Below, in pieces: positions 14,147 through 28,978 of a stretch of 64,000 nt of DNA (within the stretch, counting starts at the first letter, position 1; each line of letters begins with the position of its first letter). This DNA is from an uncultured Hyphomicrobiales bacterium (lineage in GTDB: Bacteria; Pseudomonadota; Alphaproteobacteria; Rhizobiales; Beijerinckiaceae). Under the pieces are notes generated by a model, which did not search any database, was not told the DNA's origin, and saw only the letters and a list, made by a program, of their open reading frames with translations. Position numbers and translations under genes: made by a program. The stretch covers positions 27,336-91,335 of the forward strand of contig CAINED010000061.1 in NCBI GenBank assembly GCA_903847605.1, given 5' to 3'.

Positions 14147-14284
14147 AGCCCTACGAAATCTATTGTATGCGCTCGCATATTTGCTGCGCCGCAATACATT
14201 TTTGGACTGCTTCCTTGTACAATTCGATGGTCGGCGCTCCCCAAAATGGTAGTCTTTCTCCCGGAGAAATACGGGGAGGACTTC

Positions 14285-16249
14285 ATGACAAAGCATTCCG
14301 AAAAGCCGACGTCAGCCGAGCCGATTAGCGCCGACCGCCGCTCGTTCCTGAAAGGCGCAGCGATTGCGGGCGCAGCAGTTGCGATGCCTTCGCCGAACAA
14401 TAACGAGGCGCAAGCGCAAATCTCCGCGGGCACGCGCAAGGCTGCGCCGCCGCCGACTTCGGAACTCCTCGAACATGTCGCCGTTCCCGTCGGCGCCGGA
14501 CATGGCGAAGGACGTCCCGGCGGCGATTTCATGGTCGATGTGCTGCGTGCATTGAAAATCGAATATGTCGCGACCAATCCGGCATCGAGCTGCCGCGGCC
14601 TGCACGAATCCATCAACAATTATGCGATGAACAAAAGCCCGGAACTTCTCACAGTCATGCACGAGGAGTCCGGTGCAGCAATGGCGCATGGCTATGCCAA
14701 AGTGACCGGCAAGCCGATGGCGTGCCTGTTTCACGGCACCGTCGGCATGCAGCACGCGACGATGGCCATGTACAACGCCTGGTGCGATCGCGTGCCGATG
14801 ATCGTCATGGCCGGCAATCATCTTGATGCTGCGGATCGCTTGCCCGGCGTGCCGACGACACATGCCGCGCAGGACCCCATGGCGATCGTGCGCGACTTCA
14901 CGAAATGGGACGACCAACCGATGTCGCTGCAGGCTTTTGCCGAAGCGATGACCCGCGCCTATCAGATCACCATGACGCCGCTGCAAGCTCCCGTCGCTAT
15001 ATCCATCGACGGCCACATGCAGGATCATCCGATACCGGCGAACGCGAAGCTGCGCATTCCCAAGCTCATCATGCCCTCGGTGCCGCAGGGCGAAACCGGC
15101 GCCGTGAAGGATGCTGCGAAGCTGCTCGTCGGCGCGCAGAATCCGGTCATCGTCGTCGACCGCGCCGCACGCACGCACAAGGGACAGGGCCTGATCGTCG
15201 AACTGGCGGAATCGCTCAATGCGGCGGTCATCGATCAACTGGGACGGCAGAACTTCCCCAACCGCCATTACCTGCACGGCGAAGGCCGGGTCGATTCCCT
15301 CATTCGCGATGCGGACGTCATCATCGGCCTCGAGTTGACCGACTTCTGGGGCACGGTGAACGGCATCACCGACAATCCGGAACAGCCGCAATCGACGCGC
15401 ATCAAGGAGGGCACGAAGCTCATCAGCATTACTGCCAAGGATCTCTATATCCGCGCGAACTATCAGGACTTCCAGCGCTTCCAGCAGGTGGATATCCCCA
15501 TCGCGGCAGACGCCGAGGCGACGTTGCCATCGCTCATCGAGGCGATCAGGTCGGCGATGGACCCCGCCGCCAAGGCCCGCGTCGAGAAGCGCGGCGAGCT
15601 GCACCGCAAGGCCCGCGCTGCGGCGCGCGAGCGGATGATGACGGCGGCGACGCTGGCCTGGGACGCAAGCCCGATTTCAACGGCGCGCCTTTCCGCCGAA
15701 ATCTGGGCCGCGGTGAAAGATCACGACTGGGCCATGGTGTCGCGCGATTCGAGCCTGAGCAACTGGCCGCACCGCATCTGGAATTTCGACAAGCCCTACC
15801 AGTTCATCGGCGGCCCGGGCGGCGCTGGCGTCGGCTACAATCTTCCGGCTTCCGTTGGCGCAGCGCTTGCCCATCGCGAACATGGACGCCTTGCGGTGAA
15901 TATCCAGAACGACGGCGACGCCATGTTCGCGCCGGGCGTATTGTGGACGGCGATGCATCACAAGATTCCGCTTTTGACGGTGATGCACAACAACCGCGCC
16001 TATCATCAGGAAGTCATGCATTTGCAGCGTCTCGCAAGTTGGCGCGGGCGCGGCGCGGATCGTCAGTGGATCGGCACGATCATCGACCGGCCCGCCATCG
16101 ACTTCGCAATGCTCGCCAGGAGCATGGGTATGTCGAGCTTCGGACCGATCAGCAATCCGAACGAACTCGGCCCTGTGCTCAAGCGCGCGGTCGCCATGGT
16201 GAAATCCGGCGAGCCGGTTCTCATCGACGCCATCACGCAGCCGCGCTGA
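14285..16249 (+). CDS. Tat-exported thiamine-diphosphate-dependent enzyme
   Basis: A 654-residue acetolactate-synthase/benzoylformate-decarboxylase-fold enzyme with a twin-arginine signal (RRSFLK, Arg18-Arg19), a hydrophobic Ala-rich stretch and a likely cleavage near AQAQ (42-45). The PYR domain has the cofactor-activating Glu in MHEESGAAMAHGYA. The PP domain carries the ThDP/Mg motif from NDGDAMF to HNNRAYHQE. Most homologues of this fold are cytoplasmic; export through Tat fits a protein folded around its cofactor. It is the first gene of an operon with a c-type cytochrome (11 bases) and an LVIVD-repeat protein, which points to oxidation of a 2-oxo acid or similar substrate in the periplasm (inference). 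Confidence 0.88.
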   Translation: MTKHSEKPTSAEPISADRRSFLKGAAIAGAAVAMPSPNNNEAQAQISAGTRKAAPPPTSELLEHVAVPVGAGHGEGRPGGDFMVDVLRALKIEYVATNPASSCRGLHESINNYAMNKSPELLTVMHEESGAAMAHGYAKVTGKPMACLFHGTVGMQHATMAMYNAWCDRVPMIVMAGNHLDAADRLPGVPTTHAAQDPMAIVRDFTKWDDQPMSLQAFAEAMTRAYQITMTPLQAPVAISIDGHMQDHPIPANAKLRIPKLIMPSVPQGETGAVKDAAKLLVGAQNPVIVVDRAARTHKGQGLIVELAESLNAAVIDQLGRQNFPNRHYLHGEGRVDSLIRDADVIIGLELTDFWGTVNGITDNPEQPQSTRIKEGTKLISITAKDLYIRANYQDFQRFQQVDIPIAADAEATLPSLIEAIRSAMDPAAKARVEKRGELHRKARAAARERMMTAATLAWDASPISTARLSAEIWAAVKDHDWAMVSRDSSLSNWPHRIWNFDKPYQFIGGPGGAGVGYNLPASVGAALAHREHGRLAVNIQNDGDAMFAPGVLWTAMHHKIPLLTVMHNNRAYHQEVMHLQRLASWRGRGADRQWIGTIIDRPAIDFAMLARSMGMSSFGPISNPNELGPVLKRAVAMVKSGEPVLIDAITQPR

Positions 16250-16260
16250 GGGAGCCGGAA

Positions 16261-16608
16261 ATGTTCAAGACTGTCATCCACGCCTGCGCCGCGGGCGCAC
16301 TCCTCCTTTCGGTCTCCGGTGCGCAAGCCCAGGACGCAGCCAAGGGCCGCGAAATTTACGTCGCAAAGGGCTGCTATTCCTGTCACGGCTACAATGGACA
16401 AGGCGGCGTGACCGGTCCCAAGCTCGCGCCCGATCCGCTCGCGCCCGATGCCATTGCAGCTTTCGTTCGCAATGCTGGCCCAACGCGCATGCCGCAATAT
16501 GTGGAGAAGGAACTTTCCAACGAGGAAGTCGGGCATATCCACGCTTGGCTTGCGAGTCAGCCCAAGCCGAAAAACTGGAAAGATATTCCCCTTCTGAATC
16601 AAGAGTAG
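16261..16608 (+). CDS. Periplasmic c-type cytochrome
   Basis: A 115-residue protein with a Sec signal peptide ending AQAQ (about residue 24) and one heme-binding CYSCH motif (Cys38, Cys41, His42). Met77 in TRMP is the probable sixth ligand, and GPKLAP the usual proline loop. It looks like a class I electron carrier. It sits between the exported ThDP enzyme and the LVIVD-repeat protein, so it is the obvious electron acceptor for that unit. ATG follows GGAG. Confidence 0.9.
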   Translation: MFKTVIHACAAGALLLSVSGAQAQDAAKGREIYVAKGCYSCHGYNGQGGVTGPKLAPDPLAPDAIAAFVRNAGPTRMPQYVEKELSNEEVGHIHAWLASQPKPKNWKDIPLLNQE

Positions 16609-16635
16609 CGATACGTCGACGAGGAGGAGCAGGCC

Positions 16636-18195
16636 ATGACTCACCACGGTAAAGGCCTGCGGCCTTTCGTTTCCCTCGTTGCGCTTGGGCTGGCGACTTC
16701 GGTCGCCGTTGCACAAGTACCGGCGCGCAGCGCGAACGCGCCGGTCAACGACCCCGATGCGGCCGCAACTGAAGAACGCGCGCGCAAGGCCTACAACGCA
16801 TCTGCGCAACAGTCGAAGAACATGCGGCTGGTGGGCGCGAACGATCTTGCCGGACGCACGGCCTACCAGCCCACAATCAAGGAACAGAACGGACGCTGGA
16901 TTCTCTACGTGGGTCATCACGGCGGTCGCGCCGTCAATCCGCTGACCAAAGAAATGGAAGAGAATGGAACCTCGATTCTCGACGTGACGAATCCTGCCAG
17001 TCCGAAGCTTCTCGTTCATGTGCCCGGGGACAAGGGCCGCGAGGTGCCGGGCCGCGAGGTAGGGGGCGCGCAGATGGTGCGCGTCTGTCGTGGCGACGAA
17101 TTGCCGAAGGGCGACAAGTCGAAGGTCTACATGCTCCGCAGCTTCGGCGACACCGGGCAGGAGATGTACGATGTCTCAAAGCCCGAAGCGCCCGTGCGTT
17201 TGTGGCGTCTCGACAACATCAAGAGCACGCACAAGAATTTCTGGGAATGCGACACGGGCATAGCCTATCTCGTTCATACCGGTGACGAGAGCAAATGGCG
17301 TATTCAGCGCATCACGAACATCTACGACCTCTCGGATCCCGCGAAGCCGCTAAAAATTCGAGAGTTCGGATTGCCCGAGCAATTGAAGACTTCGACTGGC
17401 TATCTCCCCGCTGCCATTCACGGCCCGATCTCGGCAGGACCTTCCGGCAATCGCGTCTTCTTTGGCTACGGGACGAACAGGCGCGGCGTCGCGCAGATCG
17501 TCGATCGCGAAAAGCTTTTGAAAGGGCCGGCCGAGATCACCGAGGAAAATCTGCGCGCAGCGGAGGTCGGGCGCATCACGCTGCCCGAATTCATCGGCGC
17601 GCATACGGCCTTCCCGCTCTATAATATCAAAGTGCCCGGCTTTGCCTCGGACACCGAGAAGGGAACTCGCAATTTCGTTGTCGTCGTCAACGAGACGAAT
17701 ATCACTGTCTGCGCCGAGCCGCGTCAGCTCGTCTATTTCGTCGATGTAACAGACGAATCGCGCCCGATCGGCGTGGCGACTTACGAGCCTAACGAGCGCA
17801 GCGGAAAATTCTGCGATCGCGGCGGGCGCTTCGGCGCGCACGCCAGCCATGAAAACATGACGCCGATATTCCATGGCAAGATCATGTTCTTCAGCTGGTT
17901 CAACGCTGGCGTGCGCATGGTCGATGTGCGCGATCCATACAAGCCCAGGGAACTCGGCTATTTCATTCCCGCAGTGAACCGTACAACCGATTATCGCTGC
18001 GCCGACGAGCGCAACAAGCGCGGCTGCGTCCGCGTCGTGCAGATCAACAACATGGAAGTGGACGACCGCGGCTACGTCTATGCCGTCGACCGCGCCAATT
18101 CCGGCGTTTTTGTTCTCGAAGTCACCGGTGAGGCCAGACGTATCGCCGACTTCAAATCGGCCAATGCCGCACGCAATCGCCAGGCACAGCGATAG
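16636..18195 (+). CDS. Exported LVIVD-repeat (beta-propeller-like) protein
   Basis: A 519-residue protein with an N-terminal signal peptide (hydrophobic stretch to about residue 26, AVAQ). Repeated units of the LVIVD type, a D-V-x-(D/N)-P pattern followed by a strand, occur near residues 112 (ILDVTNPASP), 176 (YDVSKPEAP), 228 (YDLSDPAKP), 366 (VDVTDESRP), 428 (VDVRDPYKP) and 490. Six such units suggest a propeller. Several Cys residues lie in the mature part, consistent with a periplasmic location. It could be a binding or scaffold subunit for the exported ThDP enzyme and cytochrome; a catalytic role is not evident. Confidence 0.8.
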   Translation: MTHHGKGLRPFVSLVALGLATSVAVAQVPARSANAPVNDPDAAATEERARKAYNASAQQSKNMRLVGANDLAGRTAYQPTIKEQNGRWILYVGHHGGRAVNPLTKEMEENGTSILDVTNPASPKLLVHVPGDKGREVPGREVGGAQMVRVCRGDELPKGDKSKVYMLRSFGDTGQEMYDVSKPEAPVRLWRLDNIKSTHKNFWECDTGIAYLVHTGDESKWRIQRITNIYDLSDPAKPLKIREFGLPEQLKTSTGYLPAAIHGPISAGPSGNRVFFGYGTNRRGVAQIVDREKLLKGPAEITEENLRAAEVGRITLPEFIGAHTAFPLYNIKVPGFASDTEKGTRNFVVVVNETNITVCAEPRQLVYFVDVTDESRPIGVATYEPNERSGKFCDRGGRFGAHASHENMTPIFHGKIMFFSWFNAGVRMVDVRDPYKPRELGYFIPAVNRTTDYRCADERNKRGCVRVVQINNMEVDDRGYVYAVDRANSGVFVLEVTGEARRIADFKSANAARNRQAQR

Positions 18196-22388: not shown

Positions 22389-22527
22389 ATCCTTGCATTA
22401 TAGGCGGTTCGGCCTGCCCCTTACAACGATTGTGGCGTTTTCTCCGGGATTGTCCCTATTTGCAGTCGAAGGCAAGTCCTGCCAAAAGGCCCGCAGAATG
22501 GGAACGGTGACCGTGAGGAGACGAAAC

Positions 22528-23556
22528 ATGCGCAACGGCCTCAAAACATCCGCCATAGCCGGTCTGGCAATCGGACTGTCTGTTTCGCAGGCAGCCCTCG
22601 CCCAGTCGTCCGATCAATTCTACAAGGGAAAGACCGTCACGATCACCATCGGGTTTTCCGCTGGCGGCACATACGATCTCTTCGGCCGACTGGTCTCCCG
22701 CCACATCGGCAAGCACATTCCCGGCAATCCCACGGTCATCGCGCAGAGCATGCCGGGCGCCGGCTCTTTCGTCGCCGCCAACTGGCTGTTCACTGTCGCG
22801 CCGAAGGACGGCACGGCCATCGGAATCGTCTCGCAGACGATCGCAATGGAAGAAGCGCTGAAGAACAAGGGCGTGCGCTACAAATCCGCCGAGTTCAACT
22901 GGATCGGCCGTGCCACATCCAACAACGAAGTGCAGGTCTTCTGGCACACATCCAAGGGCACAACGACTGACGGCGCCAAGACCGCCGAAATTCCCGTCGC
23001 CTCGACCGGTCCTGGTTCGCCATCGGAAACCTATCCCAAGCTGCTCAACGCCCTGATTGGCACGAAGTACAAGATCATCCGCGGCTACACCGGCTCGACT
23101 GCGGGTCTGCTCGCGATGGAGCGCGGCGAAGTCGATGGCGCGTTGACCTCGTGGAATACGATGAAGACGACGCGCAAGGCGCAGCTCGACGAGAAAAAGG
23201 CGTTTATTGCCGTTCAGTACGTTCTGAAGCGCGCTGCAGAACTGCCAAACGTGCCCGCCATCGTGGAATTGGCGAATAACGACACGGACCGCGCGCTTCT
23301 TACCTTCGCGGCGGCCAGCGGCGATATCGGCCGCGCCTTTCTCGCGCCTCCCGGCGTGCCGGCTGAGCGCATCAAGGCCTTGCGCGACGCCTTTGACGCC
23401 ACGATGAAGGATCCGGAATTGCTGGCCGAGGTGAACAAGGCGCAGCTCGATTTCGAGCCGGCGCCGGCCGCCGAAGTCGAACGGCTGGTAAAGGTGACTC
23501 TGGCGACACCTCCGGCCCTGATCGAGAAGATGGAAAAAATCCTCGCAGCGGAATGA
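22528..23556 (+). CDS. TctC/Bug-type periplasmic solute-binding protein
   Basis: A 342-residue binding protein of the same long branch as its divergent neighbour: signal peptide ending ALAQ, then FYKGKTVTITIGFSAGG, GKHIPGNPTVIAQSMPGAG and a conserved GYTGSTAGLLAMERGEVDG. GAGGAG lies seven bases ahead of the ATG at 22528, which decides this start over an upstream ATG at 22498. It is alone on its strand; the next gene converges on it after five bases. Confidence 0.9.
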   Translation: MRNGLKTSAIAGLAIGLSVSQAALAQSSDQFYKGKTVTITIGFSAGGTYDLFGRLVSRHIGKHIPGNPTVIAQSMPGAGSFVAANWLFTVAPKDGTAIGIVSQTIAMEEALKNKGVRYKSAEFNWIGRATSNNEVQVFWHTSKGTTTDGAKTAEIPVASTGPGSPSETYPKLLNALIGTKYKIIRGYTGSTAGLLAMERGEVDGALTSWNTMKTTRKAQLDEKKAFIAVQYVLKRAAELPNVPAIVELANNDTDRALLTFAAASGDIGRAFLAPPGVPAERIKALRDAFDATMKDPELLAEVNKAQLDFEPAPAAEVERLVKVTLATPPALIEKMEKILAAE

Positions 23557-23561
23557 GGTTC

Positions 23562-24536
23562 CTACTTCTTCGCCAAGCCCAATTTCTGAATGAGCGCGCC
23601 GATCTCCGCGCGGTCGGCAACGAGATACTTGTCCAACGCAGCGCCGGTTAATTCCATGGGATCGAAGAGTTCGTTCTTCTTCGCCATGTCCATATAAACC
23701 GGCGTTTTCGTTGCAGCGAGGAAGGCGTCGATGAGCTTCTTGCGCACGTCCGGCGGCAGGCCCTTGGGCGCAAGCATATATTGAATGGCGTTGCCCCTGT
23801 ACGGATAGCCCATCTCCATGAAGGTGGGGACATCCGGCGCTACATCGATACGGTCGGCTTCTCCCGACGCCAGCAGGCGCATCTTGCCGGCGCGGATATG
23901 TTCGCTGAAGGCAGCCGCCGAACCCATCCCCGCCGTGACGTGATTGGCGAGCACCGCATTGGTCACAGGCGCATCGCCATTGAGCGGCACGAGGTTCACA
24001 TCCAGCTTCTCGTGAATTAACACGGCGCGCGTGATGATGCCGCCCATTGTGCCCGGCCCGATATAGCCGATCGAGAGCTTGCCGGGATTGGCGCGCGCCT
24101 GCGCAACGAAGTCCTTGAAGGTCCTGATCGGGCTTTCGGCATTGATCATCACGCCCGCGCGCTGACGCCCGACCATGAGCAGCGCGTCGGTCTTTTCGAG
24201 CTGATCGGGCGCGACGTTGATGAAAAACGGCGCAATGGTAAGCGTCGAACTCGGCGTCGTGGCCACAGTATAGCCGTCCGCCGGCGCAGTGATCAGTTCG
24301 TTGATCGCCACGGACCCCGCCGCGCCGGCCTTGTTCACGACGATGATGTCGCGTCCCAGCGTTTTGCTGGCCTCCTGCGCAATCACGCGCGAAAGCACGT
24401 CGGTGGAGCCGCCTGCCGGAAAGCCCACCAGAATTCTGATCGGGCGGTTGGGAAACTCGCTTTGCGCATTCAACGTTGAGGAGACACAGACTCCTGCCAA
24501 CACGATTGCAGTCGCAATTCCGACGCGCGTACGCAT
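23562..24536 (-). CDS. TctC/Bug-type periplasmic solute-binding protein
   Basis: A 324-residue classical Bug protein: signal peptide (to LNAQ), then FPNRPIRILVGFPAGGSTDVLSR and NKAGAAGSVA, the loops that close over a carboxylate ligand. It has a GGGAGG ribosome site. It lies in tandem after another classical Bug gene (24582-25553) with 45 bases between, and the two are alike along their length, suggesting a duplication. The cargo is probably a small carboxylic or amino acid, uptake via TctAB or signalling being possible. Confidence 0.9.
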   Translation of the reverse strand: MRTRVGIATAIVLAGVCVSSTLNAQSEFPNRPIRILVGFPAGGSTDVLSRVIAQEASKTLGRDIIVVNKAGAAGSVAINELITAPADGYTVATTPSSTLTIAPFFINVAPDQLEKTDALLMVGRQRAGVMINAESPIRTFKDFVAQARANPGKLSIGYIGPGTMGGIITRAVLIHEKLDVNLVPLNGDAPVTNAVLANHVTAGMGSAAAFSEHIRAGKMRLLASGEADRIDVAPDVPTFMEMGYPYRGNAIQYMLAPKGLPPDVRKKLIDAFLAATKTPVYMDMAKKNELFDPMELTGAALDKYLVADRAEIGALIQKLGLAKK

Positions 24537-24581
24537 ATCGACCTCCCGTTTCGTCCGGCGCTTGCAGTTTGCTGCAGGCGC

Positions 24582-25553
24582 TTAGTTCTTTCCGAGTCCG
24601 AGCCTCTTCACCAATGCGATCGATTCCTCGCGATCCTTCTGGAAATAGGCGTCGAGTTCATCGCCCTTCATTTTTGTCGGCCAGTGCAGCACGTTTCGTT
24701 TCGCGATTTCTACAAAGGCTGGCGATTGCACCGCCTTCTCCAGCGCGTCGATGAGCTTCGCCTTGATCTCAGGGGGCGTCTTCTTCGGCGCCATGAAATA
24801 TTGCAGCGTGCCGGAATAAAGATTGTAGCCCTGCTCGATCAGCGTGGGCACATCCGGCGCGACATCGAGCCGCTCGTTGTCCATCGAAGCGATGAGGCGG
24901 AACGTGCCACCGCGAATCTGCTCGGCGAAACCGGCTGCCGATGTAGTGCCCGCCGCGACGTGGTTGCCCATCAACGCCTGCACGACAGGCGCATCGCCCT
25001 GCATGGGCACGAGATTGATGTCGGACTTTTCCTGCAGGATTATCGCCTGCATGAGCACCGCGACGCCGGTGCCGACGCCTGGCGTGCCGATCGAAATTGT
25101 ACCGGGTTTTGCTTTCGCCGCAGCGAGCAGATCCTTGACGTTGCGCAGCGGACTGTCGGCTCTCACGACAAGTCCCGTCCGCTGGCGTCCGGCGACGACG
25201 AGCGCCGAAGTCACGTCCAGCAAATCGCCGCGCACGTTCTGAAACAGCGGCGTCATCGTCATCACGCCGCTCGGCGTGAGCCCGATCGTATATCCGTCGG
25301 GATCGGCGTTGGCGACATCGGCCATCGCGATCGTCGCGGCGGCGCCGGGCTTGTTCACCACAAGCAGTTCCTGGCCGAGATGCTTGCGCGCTTCCTGCGC
25401 CGCCACACGCGCGAGCACGTCGGTCGAACCGCCCGGAGCGAAACCGACCATGATGCGAATGGGCTTACTGGGAAAATTCGCTTGCGCGAATGCGGATGCC
25501 GATCCCAACGCGATACTGCATGCGGCGAGCGCAACGACGAATTTTCCGGCCAT
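24582..25553 (-). CDS. TctC/Bug-type periplasmic solute-binding protein
   Basis: A 323-residue classical Bug protein with signal peptide (to AFAQ), FPSKPIRIMVGFAPGGSTDVLAR and NKPGAAATIA. It resembles the next gene downstream (23562-24536) through shared blocks such as GRQRTGLVVRADSPLR / GRQRAGVMINAESPIR, so the pair is a tandem duplicate. The start has a GGGAGG ribosome site. The quinone-oxidoreductase-like gene lies 94 bases upstream in the same direction. Confidence 0.9.
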   Translation of the reverse strand: MAGKFVVALAACSIALGSASAFAQANFPSKPIRIMVGFAPGGSTDVLARVAAQEARKHLGQELLVVNKPGAAATIAMADVANADPDGYTIGLTPSGVMTMTPLFQNVRGDLLDVTSALVVAGRQRTGLVVRADSPLRNVKDLLAAAKAKPGTISIGTPGVGTGVAVLMQAIILQEKSDINLVPMQGDAPVVQALMGNHVAAGTTSAAGFAEQIRGGTFRLIASMDNERLDVAPDVPTLIEQGYNLYSGTLQYFMAPKKTPPEIKAKLIDALEKAVQSPAFVEIAKRNVLHWPTKMKGDELDAYFQKDREESIALVKRLGLGKN

Positions 25554-26796: not shown

Positions 26797-28869
26797 TCAG
26801 AGCGAGGGAATGATCCCGCGCAGGCCCGGGAACCAGCCGACGAGGAGCGTCGGCGGCCACGGAATCGTCAGCAGCTTGTCGAAGACGACCCAAATGAAGA
26901 GCGTCAGACCCACGGCTTGCGGGAGAACGAGCTTCCACGGCTCGTTGCCTTCGATGCGCATCAGCGCGACCACGAAGATTGGAACGGTCGGAATAAGTCC
27001 GATCACCCACATCGACGCCATGAAGCCGAGCAGCCACAGGAAGAAGACAAGAGCACGCTGCATGACCACGCTGTTGGGCAGATGGTCCGTGCCGGAATCG
27101 ACGTCCATGTGGATTTTCTTCTCGACGGATTTTTCAGCGGCCGCCGCAAGGCTGATGTCAACCATATGCGCCGGATCGCGGAAGATCTCGTTGAGCAGGC
27201 TGATCGTGCAGAAGGTGAGGGCCAAGCCGCCCACAATCATCGGCACGATCTTCGCCGAGAAATTCCATGTCGACGCTTCGTTCACCATCCAGCCGATCAG
27301 GCAGATGAAGAACACGTGCATCAGCATCTTCGGTTCAAAGCGCGGCTTGCCGAAGCCGGACAACATGCCCTTGAAGCCGCCGTGCGCCCGCACGTCCGCG
27401 ATAAATGGACGGAAGAGGCCGAGCGCCGCGATCGCAAAGAGCACCAGCACAATCGGACGCCAGAACCAGTCGACGCCGTAACGCTGGATCGAAATGAACA
27501 TGTAGCGTTCGACGATATCGCCGAGCACGAGGCCGAGAATCAGCGGCGGACGCGGCCATTTCAACTGCTTCATCGTCCAGCCGAGTATGCCGAAGATCAG
27601 CAGCGTCCAAAGATCGCCCCAGTTGCGCGAGCCCTGGAACGCCCCGATGTAGATGATGCCGAGCACCGACGGCATGATCAGCGTGTAGCGCAGGGTCGCG
27701 AGCTTGGCGAACTGGCCGGAGAACAGGTAGCAGAGACCCGCGCCCAGGATATTGGCGAGCGCCACCGACCACACCATCGCGTAGGTGACGCTCAGATGCT
27801 TTCCGAGCATGTCCGGGCCGGGAACAAGGCCGTGGATCATGAACGCGCCGAGCAGGATCGCCATGCCGGCGGAGCCGGGCACACCGAAAGCCACGGTCGG
27901 CACGAGCGCGCCGCCTTCGCGGGAGTTGTTCGCGGATTCCGAAGCGATAACACCGCGTACGTCGCCGGTGCCGAAGGTCTGCGAGGCGCCCTTTTCGGTA
28001 CGCATCGCATGGCCGTAAGCGAGCCAGTCGACAACCGCGCCACCGATGCCGGGGACCGCGCCGAGCGCTGCGCCGAGCCAGGAGCAGCGCAGCACCAGCC
28101 ACCAATGGGTGAAGCAGTCGCGCGCGCCCTGGATCATGCCGCTGACGCTGGTTTCGAGCTGTTTCGAACCGGCGGCAATGGAAGTGCGGGTAATCGCAAG
28201 GTCGGCGAGTTCAGGCAGGGCGAAAAGGCCGAGCACGATCGGAACGAGCGGCGGGCCTTCCCACAGATAGAGCGAGTCGAGCGTCCAGCGCAAAGTGCCG
28301 GTTTGCGGATCGGAACCCACCATCGAGCACATCAGGCCGAAACAGGCGGCCACAAGCCCTCGTAATGGCGCATTGCCGGCGAGCACCGACACCATGGATA
28401 TGCCGAGCACGGCAAAGGCCAGGAGTTCCGGCGATCCGATATAGAGCATGATCGGGCGCAGGATGGGCAGCGAAATGCCCATCAGGATCGCGCCGAAAAT
28501 GCCGCCCATCATTGACGACATATAGGCGGCTGAAAGCGCGCGGCCGGCTTCGCCGCGCTTGGCCATGGGCAAACCGTCAAGCACGGTTGCCGCGGACCCC
28601 GCGCCGCCGGGCACGCCGAACAGAATGGCCGGGATGGGATCGCCTGTCGCTGTGGTCGAGCCGAGGCCGAGCAGCAACGCCATCGCGGCGTAAGGGTCCA
28701 TGTTGAAGGTGAAGGGCAGAAGCAACGCGGTGCCCGCGAGGCCGCCGATACCGGGCAGAATGCCCAGCACCAGTCCGAGAATAACGCCCGAGAACAGCAT
28801 CAATAGCCGGAACGGGTCCATCAGCATAACGAAGGCCTGTCCGGCCGCTTGCAGCATACTGGCTTCCAT
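26797..28869 (-). CDS. Tripartite tricarboxylate transporter permease, TctA fused to a TctB-like domain
   Basis: About 690 residues, against roughly 500 for TctA alone. Residues 1 to about 500 are a multi-span TctA (LGILPGIGGLAGTALLLPF, ILFGVPGGAGSAATVLDGLPMA). From about 510 the protein continues with four more hydrophobic segments (for example FFICLIGWMV and VLPQAVGLTLFIWVVF) and a C-terminal LTIPWPPTLL, the layout of the small TctB subunit. It therefore seems to carry both membrane subunits in one chain. The ATG at 28869 is used; an ATG four codons later is possible. It is the only TctA in the window, for nine TctC proteins. Confidence 0.87.
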   Translation of the reverse strand: MEASMLQAAGQAFVMLMDPFRLLMLFSGVILGLVLGILPGIGGLAGTALLLPFTFNMDPYAAMALLLGLGSTTATGDPIPAILFGVPGGAGSAATVLDGLPMAKRGEAGRALSAAYMSSMMGGIFGAILMGISLPILRPIMLYIGSPELLAFAVLGISMVSVLAGNAPLRGLVAACFGLMCSMVGSDPQTGTLRWTLDSLYLWEGPPLVPIVLGLFALPELADLAITRTSIAAGSKQLETSVSGMIQGARDCFTHWWLVLRCSWLGAALGAVPGIGGAVVDWLAYGHAMRTEKGASQTFGTGDVRGVIASESANNSREGGALVPTVAFGVPGSAGMAILLGAFMIHGLVPGPDMLGKHLSVTYAMVWSVALANILGAGLCYLFSGQFAKLATLRYTLIMPSVLGIIYIGAFQGSRNWGDLWTLLIFGILGWTMKQLKWPRPPLILGLVLGDIVERYMFISIQRYGVDWFWRPIVLVLFAIAALGLFRPFIADVRAHGGFKGMLSGFGKPRFEPKMLMHVFFICLIGWMVNEASTWNFSAKIVPMIVGGLALTFCTISLLNEIFRDPAHMVDISLAAAAEKSVEKKIHMDVDSGTDHLPNSVVMQRALVFFLWLLGFMASMWVIGLIPTVPIFVVALMRIEGNEPWKLVLPQAVGLTLFIWVVFDKLLTIPWPPTLLVGWFPGLRGIIPSL

Positions 28870-28978
28870 GAGAGTCAGCCTTTTGTTTCGAATGATCGTT
28901 GGTGTTGGTTCTGTCGGGCACCGCGCCACTTGCGCGCGCCGGAAGGATCATTCGCGATGAACATGCATCGCGAAGAAA

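Follow-up and report, generated by a model that had tools for sequence, protein, structure and literature searches.

Why should a thiamine diphosphate (ThDP) enzyme carry a signal for export from the cytoplasm and stand directly in front of a gene for a cytochrome c predicted to be secreted? The question is raised by a locus in a 64,000-nucleotide (nt) stretch of contig CAINED010000061.1 (assembly GCA_903847605.1, positions 27,336 to 91,335, forward strand) from an uncultured Hyphomicrobiales bacterium, the whole of which we call the window. Three open reading frames (ORFs) lie here in tandem on the + strand, separated by 11 and 27 nt, an arrangement already given in a preliminary description of this DNA and borne out by the ORF coordinates. 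They encode a ThDP-dependent enzyme of the benzoylformate-decarboxylase/acetolactate-synthase fold (654 residues; 14285..16249, stop codon included), a predicted secreted monohaem class I cytochrome c (115 residues; 16261..16608), and a predicted secreted, LVIVD-like beta-propeller protein (519 residues; 16636..18195) that we treat as an accessory neighbour. The start of the enzyme is taken at 14285, where it is preceded by GGGGAGGA; the ORF list holds an earlier ATG at 14246. We propose, at a probability of roughly 0.55, that the first two genes form a module in which a ThDP enzyme, exported by the twin-arginine translocation (Tat) system, oxidises a 2-oxo acid (or an aldehyde) in the periplasm, the electrons likely passing to its own cytochrome c.

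The first two genes belong together as a conserved module; their arrangement is not due to chance. Of 101 distinct loci from Alphaproteobacteria, Betaproteobacteria and Acidobacteriota, 99 have a haem-c gene directly 3′ of the one for the ThDP enzyme; the 101 comprise a wider sample of 80 (the best 80 of 138 relatives, one genome per species scanned), 18 new congeneric loci, two plasmid loci and the window itself. A relative of the window cytochrome lies directly downstream in 78 of the 80 wider loci; in the other two, L031 and L050, the contig stops 179 and 147 nt past the enzyme. The cytochrome is likewise present at all 29 congeneric loci fetched, 11 of which duplicate DNA already counted in the 80 (L093 and L014, for example, are one stretch) and to which four further matches were not added, and it adjoins the enzyme at both plasmid loci, in Caballeronia zhejiangensis and Novosphingobium sp. 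(the plasmid sample being five of 20 matches: H1, H2, H6, H8 and H9). Among 61 genomes around that of the window, the enzyme is found at an E-value of 1e-150 in 25, namely its own and 24 of the 36 of the same genus, and in none of the 24 from other families of the order. Limnohabitans sp. 15K (L019) is a cultured bacterium that carries a member of the family, and a broader search for homologues scored 7,993 hits, 120 of them listed.

Several comparisons indicate how specific this pairing is. When the DNA 60-500 nt behind an ORF is inspected, 78 of 80 exported-ThDP ORFs are found to have a haem-c ORF there, and so are 8 of 344 further long ORFs from this DNA. Half of the eight (L010, L045, L076 and L141) have an end like that of the enzyme and proved to be family members missed by the filter, leaving 4 of 340; some of the 344 are not real genes, since the longest ORFs were taken in GC-rich DNA. 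The window's genome has 18 other places that match the enzyme, some of them pieces of one gene. Eight of these loci, together with three plasmid-borne relatives of 34-36% identity, supply 11 non-exported relatives, none of which has an export leader or a signal-bearing haem-c ORF within 4 kb. One of them, L164, has K-R-N-F aligned with the twin-arginine motif and no hydrophobic stretch; in a non-exported relative outside these 11, L168, two arginines lie upstream of the likely start and are no signal. Three further non-exported relatives from other genomes of the phylum (33-35% identity) have no match to the window cytochrome within 1.5 kb. In a tree of 76 sequences, built by a short search, the 65 exported members fall on one side of a branch with a Shimodaira-Hasegawa-like approximate likelihood ratio (SH-aLRT) support of 94, and a more careful tree gives 24 exported rows a support of 98/94, with seven cytosolic relatives adjoining.

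The N-terminus of the enzyme, MTKHSEKPTSAEPISADRRSFLKGAAIAGAAVAMPS..AQAQ, is a twin-arginine leader. The predicted signal peptide (14285..14416) contains the motif RRSFL at residues 18-22, its two arginines encoded at 14336-14341, then a hydrophobic stretch, and an A-x-A at residues 42-44 that provides a putative cleavage site. Across the family the arginine pair is present in 97 of the 101 distinct loci (77 of 80 wider, 17 of 18 new congeneric or 28 of 29 fetched, and both plasmid loci), and in the same 97 the RRxF motif comes with the hydrophobic stretch by which a Tat substrate is recognised. Of the remaining four, L045 and L115 are cut at their start by the edge of the contig, and the motif is missing from L010 and L073. 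R18 and R19 are invariant in 63 of 63 aligned members, which were selected for having them. The window's genome has genes for TatC and for CcmE, a haem-maturation protein. Export of the enzyme to the periplasm is thus predicted from its leader, and the twin-arginine signal claimed at the outset holds up as a motif, though the window protein falls just short of the Pfam TAT_signal threshold (see below).

The enzyme behind this leader has a complete ThDP site. Its Pfam TPP_enzyme N, M and C domains (PF02776, PF00205 and PF02775) score 76.1, 41.6 and 76.8 bits against cut-offs of 26.8, 30.4 and 21.9, and all three are matched by 63 of 63 aligned members at an E-value of 0.01. The preliminary description had called the ThDP motif intact, and the alignment agrees: the catalytic glutamate, E127, is kept in 62 of 63 members, D543 and G544 in all 63, and N569 and N570 in all 62 members with letters there. 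The ThDP/Mg motif extends over 15911..15994, from D543-G544-D545 (15911-15919) to N569-N570 (15989-15994), and the usual GDG reads NDG in the window enzyme. The protein scores below cut-off with the models for acetolactate synthase (TIGR00118; 129.6 bits, cut-off 538.35), benzoylformate decarboxylase (PRK07092; 161.2, cut-off 493), pyruvate oxidase (NF006377; 88, cut-off 742) and the closest NCBIfam entry, the PRK08327 thiamine-requiring protein (NF006203; 213, cut-off 456). Benzoylformate decarboxylases are its top matches by profile, and an AlphaFold2 model (predicted local distance difference test, pLDDT, 82.9) finds its best Foldseek matches in benzaldehyde lyase, catabolic acetolactate synthase, BbmA and benzoylformate decarboxylase. 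S101 (14585-14587), E127 (14663-14665) and H150 (14732-14734), spanning 14585..14734, align with Ser26, Glu47 and His70 in the active site of benzoylformate decarboxylase; 61, 62 and 63 of the 63 aligned members, respectively, retain them. Residues found in at least 93% of 65 exported members and at most 20% of the 11 non-exported relatives include R321, N392-Y393-Q394, W482, R497, Y518, H574-Q575-E576, M578 and R654. The last of these is the C-terminal residue: an arginine ends all 65 aligned exported members at one column, usually as TQPR.

The partner is a class I cytochrome c by its CxxCH, its distal methionine and its Pfam scores, 50.2 bits for PF13442 (Cytochrome_CBB3; cut-off 27) and 40.6 for PF00034 (Cytochrom_C; cut-off 21.3). 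With a single CxxCH (CYSCH, residues 38-42, 16372-16386) and an N-terminal hydrophobic signal read from the sequence, it is the signal-peptide monohaem protein that had been described. C38, C41, H42, M77 and P78 are invariant in 36 aligned relatives, drawn from 77 with a usable start, and Met77 (16489-16491) is the likely axial haem ligand. Natural fusions of enzyme and cytochrome were sought as well; the one long homologue that was read (P0070, 767 residues) contains an internal duplication and no CxxCH, and long ORFs in the cytochrome frame were rejected as fusions, the frame differing from that of the enzyme. On the Caballeronia zhejiangensis plasmid (L155) the partner is an annotated c-type cytochrome of 206 residues with two matched cytochrome stretches, and the pair lies near an aromatic-ring-hydroxylating dioxygenase cluster.

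A second lineage of ThDP enzymes shows the same association. Upstream of the module in a betaproteobacterial metagenome-assembled genome (L077) is another ThDP gene, 26% identical to the window enzyme, whose product begins MRDLVQGYLSKAISRRGFL and whose motifs were read directly in that locus. It is flanked by haem-c ORFs, with CFQCH before and CAKCH after, within an operon-like run (L077:3269-11218) that opens with a Rieske oxygenase, continues with two different Tat-tagged ThDP enzymes and three haem-c ORFs, and closes with an amidohydrolase; the first haem-c ORF of the run matches no Pfam family at an E-value of 1e-4. The arginine pair is present in 119 of 120 second-lineage homologues among the matches listed. 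At an E-value of 1e-60 the lineage occurs in 17 of 48 genomes, all chosen for holding the first family, and in the 23 loci obtained the arginine pair is found in each of the 21 that reach the N-terminus. In 17 of the 23 the enzyme gene is flanked, on one side or both, by a leader-bearing haem-c ORF: in 15 of 15 loci at 68% identity or more, and in 2 of 8 in two acidobacterial genomes. One of these genomes, G481, holds seven copies (L189-L194), and of its five copies with an N-terminus at most L192 shows a haem-c ORF in the DNA examined. Searches for the second lineage returned no match on plasmids and none in 398 genomes of the phylum at three candidates scored per genome. In a tree the two exported groups stand apart with non-exported enzymes between them, at a place where long branches meet.

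Taken together, the conserved Tat signal, the intact ThDP site and the haem-c gene immediately 3′ are what one would expect of a ThDP oxidase that is exported and has a cytochrome to itself. The choice of route would fit as well: the enzyme would fold and bind ThDP in the cytoplasm and then cross the membrane folded, and a cofactor loaded in the cytoplasm would explain Tat, the route for folded proteins, in place of the general secretory (Sec) pathway. In the periplasm, decarboxylation of a 2-oxo acid, probably an aromatic one, would leave a ThDP-bound enamine; two successive one-electron transfers to the cytochrome c may turn this into acyl-ThDP, which water would hydrolyse to release a carboxylic acid, while the reduced cytochrome would pass its electrons to a terminal oxidase. 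ThDP radicals are known in 2-oxo-acid:ferredoxin oxidoreductases. On this reading the enzyme is probably a decarboxylating 2-oxo-acid oxidase. The preliminary description had offered either a periplasmic carboligase or a 2-oxo acid oxidase linked to the cytochrome; the pairing it proposed is upheld, and the carboligase becomes the less likely half, because the equivalents of Ser26, Glu47 and His70 are kept and a cytochrome would be useless in a non-redox ligation. More tentatively, and at somewhat less than even odds, we suggest that such modules represent a new class of respiratory dehydrogenase, Tat-exported ThDP enzymes that would deliver enamine electrons directly to a dedicated cytochrome c with no flavin, nicotinamide or iron-sulphur relay, that would have arisen in at least two ThDP lineages, and that would place the oxidation of 2-oxo acids or aldehydes at the cell surface.

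A number of observations weigh against the proposal of a periplasmic oxidase. The sample of 80 leans to the exported clade, because the peptide patterns used to gather it came from the window protein, one of them in the signal region, and the exported enzyme is rare at large: among 398 genomes of the phylum, at three candidates scored per genome, only the window's own holds a member at an E-value of 1e-80. Beyond enzyme and cytochrome no conserved neighbour names a substrate, and the largest real cluster, TctC-type receptors in 29 of 81 loci, is best taken as background because the window's genome (5.3 Mb) has at least 150 TctC (Bug) receptor genes (300 candidates, 150 scored); as partners we have rejected them. 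The leader of the window enzyme reaches 21.6 bits with TAT_signal (PF10518), just below the cut-off of 22.7, and only 28 of 63 aligned members match that family at an E-value of 0.01. This, and the cytoplasmic location of the other known ThDP enzymes with this fold, would suit a Tat-like leader that does not export, serving for instance as an anchor or being cleaved off; we think a cytoplasmic enzyme very improbable, given the arginine pair and hydrophobic stretch in 97 of 101 loci, the lack of a leader in the 11 relatives, and a partner cytochrome that has to be periplasmic to acquire its haem.

The remaining observations of this kind concern the redox step. The AlphaFold2 model contains no ligand; a relay cofactor, FAD (flavin adenine dinucleotide) or other, may or may not be present. 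Enzyme and cytochrome show no charge complementarity: of 35 pairs compared, 16 have opposite isoelectric points, and the charges correlate at 0.08 (p 0.63). Moreover, six of the 23 second-lineage loci, all acidobacterial and one (L194) a truncated gene, are without a haem-c ORF in the DNA examined. To these one may add that the structural neighbours are all non-oxidative ThDP enzymes or synthases, and the rival reading is an exported enzyme that acts as a lyase, a decarboxylase or a carboligase and carries out no redox step, its linked cytochrome serving another enzyme or general respiration. We consider it unlikely, since it would have to account for a pair kept together at 99 of 101 loci from two phyla where no further neighbour is conserved, for the recurrence of the pairing in a second lineage and for the want of a cytochrome beside non-exported relatives. 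Somewhat less probable again is an oxidase of (possibly aromatic) aldehydes, which would reach the same enamine without decarboxylation and pass its electrons to the cytochrome. The closest folds do include the aldehyde-binding benzaldehyde lyase and formolase, and some loci of the family lie amid aromatic-catabolism genes of the UbiD, FAD-hydroxylase, amidohydrolase and Rieske oxygenase types; the kept Ser/Glu/His set, however, is of the decarboxylase type, and those neighbours are not conserved. Such surroundings are at most hints of aromatic substrates. The window itself holds genes for Rieske/LigXa-like proteins, an LLM monooxygenase, a molybdenum hydroxylase and TctC receptors.

The third gene had been described as encoding an LVIVD-repeat protein that acts as scaffold or substrate receptor, and neither part of that description is supported. 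The protein matches no Pfam family at an E-value of 0.01 and stays below cut-off with LVIVD (PF08309; 8.4 bits against 20.2) and TIGR04312 (29.2 against 100); it is a beta-propeller by predicted fold, its model (pLDDT 90.3) being all-beta. The best structural match is 5hrm, the phosphotriesterase of Sphingobium sp. TCM1 (E-value 4.8e-19, template modelling score 0.60), which is also its only sequence match in the PDB under an E-value of 0.01. With this phosphotriesterase/haloalkylphosphorus hydrolase (5hrm, 5ioj) it has the propeller in common at 16% identity over the fold, a likeness at the level of fold. As to position, only three loci have the gene next to the pair, namely the window, L139 (genome G008) and L140 (G010), which its contig end truncates, and homologues in six further congeneric stretches are located away from the pair. 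It is absent at an E-value of 1e-4 from all 80 wider loci, 65 of which extend 2 kb or more beyond the enzyme, so that joint conservation, which the preliminary description had wished to see checked for all three genes, holds for the first two and fails for the third. We therefore reject the third gene as a core part of the system and regard it as probably a later local addition; judged by its modelled fold, a secreted propeller that may be a hydrolase is a likelier description of the product than a scaffold of this system. A three-part system would have the shared gene order of the window, L139 and L140 in its favour, and we give it very little credence against 0 of 80 wider loci, the separate homologues and a closest fold that is a hydrolase and not a receptor.

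How does a periplasmic ThDP oxidase compare with what is known? To our knowledge, ThDP enzymes of this fold are cytoplasmic. Benzoylformate decarboxylase (MdlC of P. putida, PDB 1bfd) shares the fold, the ThDP motif and the Ser26/Glu47/His70 equivalents with the window enzyme; it differs in having no known export signal or cytochrome partner, and in its family model, PRK07092, which the window enzyme fails. The solved enzymes nearest in sequence and fold, namely benzoylformate decarboxylase, benzaldehyde lyase and catabolic acetolactate synthase, are not known to contain FAD. Pyruvate oxidase PoxB, once named pyruvate:cytochrome b1 oxidoreductase, belongs to the same superfamily and feeds electrons from an oxidative decarboxylation into the respiratory chain, a likeness that holds if our proposal is right; PoxB is, however, cytoplasmic or peripheral, bears FAD and reduces quinone, and its model NF006377 is failed by the window enzyme. 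In layout the closest parallel is methanol dehydrogenase with its cytochrome cL (MxaF/MxaG, XoxF/XoxG), a secreted dehydrogenase with a dedicated monohaem cytochrome c, in which fold and cofactor are unrelated and pyrroloquinoline quinone (PQQ) stands where ThDP would. The 2-oxo-acid:ferredoxin oxidoreductases likewise have a ThDP intermediate oxidised one electron at a time by a metal centre, and differ in architecture, in their internal [4Fe-4S] clusters, in being cytoplasmic and in depending on coenzyme A.

The module is best seen as a ThDP oxidase that was moved to the periplasm and given a cytochrome c of its own. The open-access papers searched gave no description of a ThDP enzyme that is exported and paired with a cytochrome; as most subscription papers lay outside them, this is weak evidence of absence. 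Periplasmic respiration draws on PQQ, FAD, molybdenum, copper and haem; if the proposal is correct, thiamine would join this small set, bacteria would burn organic acids or aldehydes on the outer side of the inner membrane in a new way, and Tat would be shown to export ThDP-loaded proteins. Direct electron transfer from thiamine to haem would become testable with two small soluble proteins, and a large set of genes labelled only acetolactate synthase or benzoylformate decarboxylase in databases would gain a function.

Some lesser features may be recorded. A scan for promoters and terminators gave signals no more frequent than in shuffled sequence. Examples of TctC receptor genes in the window lie at 22393-25553, and a fused-looking TctA-TctB ORF follows at 26797-28929. 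At two family loci (L063:8076-10158 and L073:5277-7359) another long ORF is followed by a haem-c ORF, and its C-terminus resembles PQQ dehydrogenases by eye.

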